From NCBI GenBank assembly GCA_021846565.1, contig JAJZWS010000007.1:1-64000 (forward strand): a stretch of DNA of 64,000 bases, in the 5' to 3' direction. Under the pieces are notes generated by a model. That model made no database searches and was not told the DNA's origin. It saw only the letters and a program-made list of their open reading frames with translations. Source of the stretch: Bacillota bacterium (GTDB lineage Bacteria; Bacillota; Sulfobacillia; Sulfobacillales; JAIMBI01). Positions 35,986 through 55,059 of this stretch are shown here, one piece after another (the stretch's first letter is position 1; the number at the start of each line of letters is the position of its first letter). Made by a program: the position numbers and the translations under genes.

Positions 35986-36147
35986 CCTCTTATCGAGAGC
36001 GGTGGAGGGTTCGGGCCCGATGAAGCCCGGCAACCGGGGGCGACCCACGGTGCCAAGCCCCGCACGGGTGGCCGTGAGGGATGAGAGGATAGGGGGATCG
36101 CGCGTGCGCCCGCCATTCTTCCATCCGGGAGGGCAGGGCGTTTTTTC
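35986..36147 (+). promoter_or_regulatory. SAM-I (S-box) riboswitch with terminator, upstream of metK
   Basis: The aptamer spans about 35986-36088: P1 CCTCTTATC pairs with GATGAGAGG, and the core has GAGAGCGGTGGAGGG, GGCCCGATGAAGCC, CGGCAACC and the CGGTGCCAAGCCC strand. The expression platform is a CGCCC...GGGCG hairpin (about 36107-36140) followed by TTTTTT (36141-36146). High SAM would stop transcription before metK. A possible -35 TTGACG at 35888 has only a weak -10. Confidence 0.93.
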
Positions 36148-54069: not shown

Positions 54070-54202
54070 TCGCACAGATTGTTCCGGGCCATGCAACCCT
54101 TCGGTGACTGGGCACGTTTGACTAGGTGGATGCCGATCGGGACCGGCCAACATCGGTTTGGTCCTGGAACAGAGAGGTAGCCACTCGAGGAGGGGAACGC
54201 GC

Positions 54203-54391
54203 ATGCAGACCAAGCGCCCCAAAAACCAGCGCCGTGCGGACTATTTTTTATACACGTGGCAGATTCACGCGATTCGTCGGCTGGCGGCCGAGACCCATCG
54301 CCATCCAAGCGAGGTGGTGCGCGATCTTTTGAACGAAGCGCTTCCTCATCGCGACGAGGCCGACGGGCCGCCTCAATTGATGAGTTCGTGA
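54203..54391 (+). CDS. Small RHH-like DNA-binding protein
   Basis: 62 residues: basic start, RADYFLYTWQIHAIRRLAAE then HRHPSEVVRDLLNEALPH, the ribbon-helix-helix order. ATG 54203 follows GGAGGGGAACGCGC. The last codons lie within an 11-bp tandem repeat. No toxin gene follows. Confidence 0.6.
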   Translation: MQTKRPKNQRRADYFLYTWQIHAIRRLAAETHRHPSEVVRDLLNEALPHRDEADGPPQLMSS

Positions 54392-54422
54392 TGAGTTCGT
54401 GATGAGTTCGTGATGAGTTCGT
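54379..54422. repeat. Tandem repeat, 4 x 11 bp
   Basis: GATGAGTTCGT is repeated four times without change (54379, 54390, 54401, 54412). It starts inside the RHH gene, and the stop codon of that gene is at 54389-54391 across the first two copies. A recent slippage expansion is the simplest explanation. Confidence 0.9.
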
Positions 54423-54434
54423 GAGTCACGACGT

Positions 54435-54466
54435 GCAGAAGGCACCGATGAGTCGGTGCCTTCTGC
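54435..54466. terminator. Bidirectional terminator between the RHH and peroxiredoxin genes
   Basis: A 14-bp perfect stem (54435-54448 with 54453-54466) with a TGAG loop lies between convergent genes. Confidence 0.75.
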
Positions 54467-54488: not shown

Positions 54489-54971
54489 CTATGTACCCAG
54501 GTGACTGACGGCCTCCAGCACGGCTTCATACGCTGCCGGGTCGTTGGCGGGAAACGAACGATTCTCGTATCGAAGGATGCCGTTGCCGTCAATGACAAAC
54601 ATTGACCGCTGCGCGAAGGCCTGCGCCTCGCGCAGCACGCCGTAGGCGCGGGCCGCCGTGCGCGTCAAATCCGAACCCAGGGGGAATGGCAAGCCGCCCA
54701 GGCTGGCCTGAAAGACGGTCAGAGTGGGTTTCGAGTCGACGGAGCACAACAGCAGGTTGGCCCCCAGTCCCTCGATGCGGGACCATAAACCTCGCCATGA
54801 GGTGAGTTCGGAGATTCAGCCGCCAGTGAACGCCAGCGGGAAAAACCCGAAGAGCAGCGGCCGATCGCGATAGTCGATGAGTCGTTGCGTGCGACCCTCC
54901 GTGGTTTCCACCTCAAAGTCCGGGGCCGCTTCGCCAACCCACGATGCCGAGGCTTGCGATGCCAAAGCCAT
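54489..54971 (-). CDS. AhpE-like peroxiredoxin with UGA at the peroxidatic cysteine (probable selenoprotein)
   Basis: Read through one in-frame TGA (54816-54818), this is a 160-residue thioredoxin-fold peroxiredoxin. It starts MALASQASASWVGEAAPDFE, and the active-site segment is FFPLAFTGG-U-ISEL, where relatives have T-x-x-C; the UGA is codon 52. After it come LLLCSVDSKPTLTVF, FPLGSDLTRTAARAYGVLRE and RSMFVIDGNGILRYENRSFP, all in the same frame. ATG 54971 has a perfect GGAGGTGATTCC site. A small hairpin (ACCTC-ATGGC-GAGGT) begins 12 bases after the UGA, with its loop 17 bases away, within the range of bacterial SECIS elements. Selenocysteine is the best reading; a nonsense mutation of the active-site Cys is the alternative. 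Confidence 0.8.
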
Positions 54972-55059
54972 GGAATCACCTCCGTGCGCCATTGTGCCAT
55001 AGACGCGGTGGGCTTTGTCGGCGCGGACCAGGCCTATAATGGCCGCGAGGGGGTGTCGG

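Follow-up and report, generated by a model that had tools for sequence, protein, structure and literature searches.

Introduction

Peroxiredoxins that carry selenocysteine (Sec) at the peroxidatic position are an established enzyme type. PrxU of Eubacterium acidaminophilum has been known since 2001 (Soehling 2001, as cited in PMC13188914), and Sec peroxiredoxins with a TxxU motif are a listed family with an experimental basis (PMC13188914; PMC1794560). Passages of PMC7409299 report that a 'selenocysteine-containing peroxiredoxin PrxU' is raised in Sulfobacillus thermotolerans; the sole peroxiredoxin in the table passage of that paper is BXT84_15685, which at 178 residues is longer than the members of the clade described here, and these passages hold no evidence for Sec itself. 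Little else on the use of Sec in acid-mine Bacillota or in Bacillus-type bacteria was found in the searchable literature. Here we describe a gene from a Bacillota bacterium of the Sulfobacillus order, located in a stretch of 64,000 nucleotides (the window) on contig 41 of a 134-contig draft genome of 3.4 Mb. It almost certainly codes for a selenoenzyme, a small 1-Sec peroxiredoxin in which a single in-frame UGA specifies Sec.

Results

One UGA at the catalytic codon of a peroxiredoxin gene

The gene lies on the minus strand, a point that the earlier note on this DNA had left unstated while correctly describing a single frame around one TGA. With that TGA (the only internal one) read as Sec, the translation runs MALASQ...FFPLAFTGG-U-ISELTSW...HLGT and ends at the stop (Table 1). 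The strong ribosome site said to precede the start is present as a Shine-Dalgarno sequence. Past the stop, between convergent genes, a perfect inverted repeat is a candidate terminator, and the DNA flanking the gene is collinear with that of the two closest species; those relatives that bear names are Bacillota MAGs and Sulfobacillus species. On the plus strand, an 11-bp unit (atgagttcgtg) occurs four times in tandem at positions 54380-54423, at and past the 3' end of a small ORF (54158-54391), and elsewhere in the window there is a SAM riboswitch (35987-36087, plus strand, 77.4 bits).

Table 1. Coordinates of the peroxiredoxin gene, its associated elements and the other UGA-containing AhpC/TSA genes
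Feature	Position	Strand	Remarks
Sec-containing peroxiredoxin CDS	54489..54971	minus	ATG at 54971, UGA at 54818-54816, TAG stop at 54491-54489; 160 residues if TGA is translated as Sec
Sec52 UGA codon, peroxidatic position (PLAFTGG-U)	54816..54818	minus	TGA in all orthologues found (Sulfobacillus order, Bacillaceae)
Ribosome-binding site GGAGGTGAT	54975..54983	minus	3 bases 5' of the ATG
SECIS-like hairpin ACCUC-AUGGC-GAGGU	54789..54803	minus	5 bp; homologous hairpins in sister families are stronger
Inverted repeat gcagaaggcaccga-tgag-tcggtgccttctgc	54435..54466	.	Perfect, 14-bp; read directly from the sequence
Four further AhpC/TSA genes with in-frame TGA	G000:C16:7120-7497; C89:10213-10626; C21:2786-3151; C96:41069-41374		

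Ordinary gene callers split or drop a gene of this kind, and the mechanical list of open reading frames contains a downstream piece with a TTG start (54489-54749). That entry is what a reading as two separate products, one a fragment of 51 residues and the other made from a downstream in-frame start, has in its favour; we regard this reading as extremely improbable, in that neither product would hold a complete peroxiredoxin fold or the catalytic residue, and invariant residues lie on either side of the UGA. The annotation is corrected here to one continuous gene. When the window was scanned by GC3 for further TGA-split genes, the hits were mostly gene junctions and antisense frames, and since the scan also missed the peroxiredoxin gene, it is no test of the absence of others.

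Family, fold and active site of the product

The 160-residue protein matches the Pfam AhpC-TSA model with 98.4 bits (cut-off 26). Its AlphaFold model has a peroxiredoxin fold (mean pLDDT 93.2), which aligns to solved peroxiredoxins with TM scores of up to 0.85, the top match being a BCP. Sec52 is the first residue of the active-site helix in the model (residues 52-61), and the pattern PxxxTxxU is accompanied by a distal Arg (R122). In an alignment of 21 sequences P45, T49, Sec52 and R122 do not vary, and outside the Sec52 column there is no conserved Cys; C76 is confined to the genus and to one further genome, G005, in the orthologue alignment. The label 'AhpE-like' proposed for the protein holds for the motif and for the missing conserved resolving Cys, but E-values against AhpE and against Prx1/2 types are similar, and by sequence and fold the protein is about equally near to Prx1 and BCP types. 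It is an AhpC/TSA peroxiredoxin whose anatomy is of the 1-Cys, AhpE-like kind, and it looks like a functional enzyme for the removal of peroxides.

The genome encodes the Sec decoding machinery

The genome has a tRNA-Sec with anticodon TCA (67.8 bits, over the cut-off), SelA (511 bits), SelB (320.9 bits) and SelD (349.8 bits), the latter with a UGA of its own within an SG-U-GCK motif, as well as an FdhA-like protein with the usual Sec site (NRT-U-HAPSV). All the components that the earlier note had proposed to look for, and whose absence it had named as fatal to its reading, are thus present. More widely, 20 of the 22 genomes that carry an orthologue gave a SelA match, as did all seven of the Bacillales-type genomes tested. 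The two genomes without a match are G040 (63% complete) and G004 (97% complete). G004 carries a UGA orthologue (L026) with a strong hairpin, and SelB, but yields neither a SelA match nor a tRNA-Sec over the cut-off; this may reflect a gap in the assembly or a loss in the recent past.

The UGA is conserved and the codons after it are under purifying selection

Each orthologue from 21 other genomes of the same order contains a single TGA, which occupies the corresponding codon, and the TGA is found at that codon in orthologues from Alkalicoccus, Neobacillus and Bacillus, too. Among Bacillus-type bacteria, which include Alkalicoccus and Neobacillus, the loci with the Sec form are L058, L060, L068, L070-L073 and L076. 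A further 49 homologues are more distant and come, with few exceptions, from Gemmatimonadota; in these the codon is TGC or TGT. No residue other than Sec or Cys was seen at position 52 among the homologues compared, which answers the earlier suggestion that they be aligned. In a quick tree the window's sequence falls into a clade of 30 rows from the Sulfobacillus order and from Bacillaceae and their allies, which comprises Sec forms only (SH-aLRT 96). Downstream of the UGA, dN/dS is 0.23 and 0.08 for the window's gene against the two closest species, 0.11 between these two and 0.21 against G001, all four comparisons being within the genus; the pair L024/L026 gives 0.09. Selection after the UGA is purifying.

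These data bear on the view that the gene is a pseudogene, in which the catalytic codon was hit by chance, either by a nonsense substitution or by an error of sequencing. A fresh nonsense mutation would likewise leave the frame intact but for one TGA, the genome is a draft in 134 contigs, and the hairpin of the window's copy is weak (see below). However, the TGA recurs in 21 relatives, assembled separately, and in Bacillaceae, the machinery for its decoding is complete, and a dead gene is not expected to show such low dN/dS values past the UGA. An error in the reads, which the earlier note had said would appear as TGC or TGT at 54816-54818, is excluded because the assemblies of the sister species, made independently, carry the TGA themselves. 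A pseudogene is accordingly a very improbable account of the locus.

A hairpin follows the UGA in the Sec forms

A short hairpin lies 3' of the UGA with its loop 17 nt away, as described beforehand. In the window's copy it has 5 bp and an energy of -5.9 kcal/mol, with competing folds. Its stretch (nt 12-38 after the UGA) does not stand out from synonymous recodings (p=0.29), and the whole 42 nt after the UGA give no signal either (p 0.96). Among the rules set out for bSECIS elements (PMC13188914), the loop (3-9 nt), stem (4-16 bp) and spacing (16-37) fit, whereas the G within the first two loop positions and the energy (<= -7.5) do not. Across the homologues, in a comparison that ignores kinship among sequences, nt 12-38 of 40 Sec sequences reach a mean z of -1.80 against synonymous recodings (19 with p<0.05), and the same region of the 49 Cys homologues a mean z of -0.08. 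The Sec homologues have a common hairpin after the UGA that exceeds the coding expectation and the Cys homologues do not. The helix surrounds a conserved TGG codon, with a register that shifts slightly by lineage, and some of its pairs have changed on both sides, for example from A-U to U-A at 16/30 in the family to which the window's gene belongs, and from C-G to U-A at 21/27 in Bacillaceae as well as in f3. The claim of a SECIS-like hairpin is therefore upheld for the orthologues, in which the element is conserved, and less so for the window's own copy, which we infer to be a degenerate form of a genuine element.

The same comparison helps to weigh whether the UGA stands for another residue, either because UGA has been reassigned throughout the genome (to Trp, Gly or Cys) or through simple near-cognate read-through. 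Read-through, too, would hold the frame under selection. Against this, the SelD and FdhA of the genome have UGA at canonical Sec sites, homologues show Cys at the position and neither Trp nor Gly, TGA terminates the peroxiredoxin gene itself in relatives (for example, L023 and L030-L032), and the hairpin excess is limited to the UGA forms. There is, in our judgement, very little chance that a residue other than Sec is inserted. The selenoprotein reading first put forward for this gene is supported by the Sec machinery, the conserved UGA and the restriction of homologues to Sec or Cys.

In-frame TGA codons in most AhpC/TSA genes of the genome

The genome has eight AhpC/TSA genes, and in five of them, that of the window included, a TGA lies in frame. 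The motifs of the other four are CYPLAWTPVU, AATUTACQ, LFUPYCR and YULSCLE, and their products are read, from these motifs, as putative AWTPVU or UxxC-type proteins.

Discussion

The mechanism that we propose draws on established peroxiredoxin chemistry. SelA would convert tRNA-Sec (anticodon UCA) with selenophosphate supplied by SelD, and SelB would deliver it to the UGA, with the hairpin directly past the codon possibly assisting decoding. In the folded protein the selenolate of Sec52, placed at the N-terminal end of the active-site helix and together with P45, T49 and R122, would attack H2O2 or organic peroxides, presumably as part of a response to oxidative stress, and Sec52 would become a selenenic acid. 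Because a second conserved Cys is missing, the reductant would be an outside thiol, which may be thioredoxin, a glutaredoxin-like protein or a low-molecular-weight thiol. By analogy, a 1-Sec cycle with an external thiol reductant is most likely.

It seems reasonably likely that the protein belongs to a separate AhpE-like 1-Sec subfamily, in which all members found have Sec and which acidophilic relatives of Sulfobacillus share with Bacillaceae, in genomes whose AhpC/TSA proteins mostly contain Sec. The distribution points to heavy use of selenium in peroxide defence by acid-mine Bacillota and Bacillus-type bacteria. Moreover, an all-Sec clade that stands beside more distant, all-Cys homologues is well suited to testing what advantage Sec confers on a peroxidase.

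With PrxU (NCBIfam NF040737) the protein shares the AhpC/TSA family, the PxxxTxxU pattern and a peroxidatic Sec, but it is shorter (160 residues against a 233-position model) and scores 47.3 bits where the cut-off is 270, so that it is a new member of the known Sec peroxiredoxins and perhaps of a separate subfamily. The thiol peroxidase Prx-SUH selenoprotein (NF045827) is likewise a Sec-containing thiol peroxidase, but the match to its model is only partial (28 of 298 bits) and its listed CxxU motif (PMC13188914) does not occur in the window's protein. AhpE of Mycobacterium tuberculosis (Rv2238c; PDB 1xvw, 4x0x) resembles it in the FFPLAFTG segment, in length and in having no conserved resolving Cys; it has Cys in place of the Sec, however, and in sequence is only about as near as Prx1/Prx2 types. 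The enzyme type is already known, and what this locus adds to it is a new, well-supported branch.
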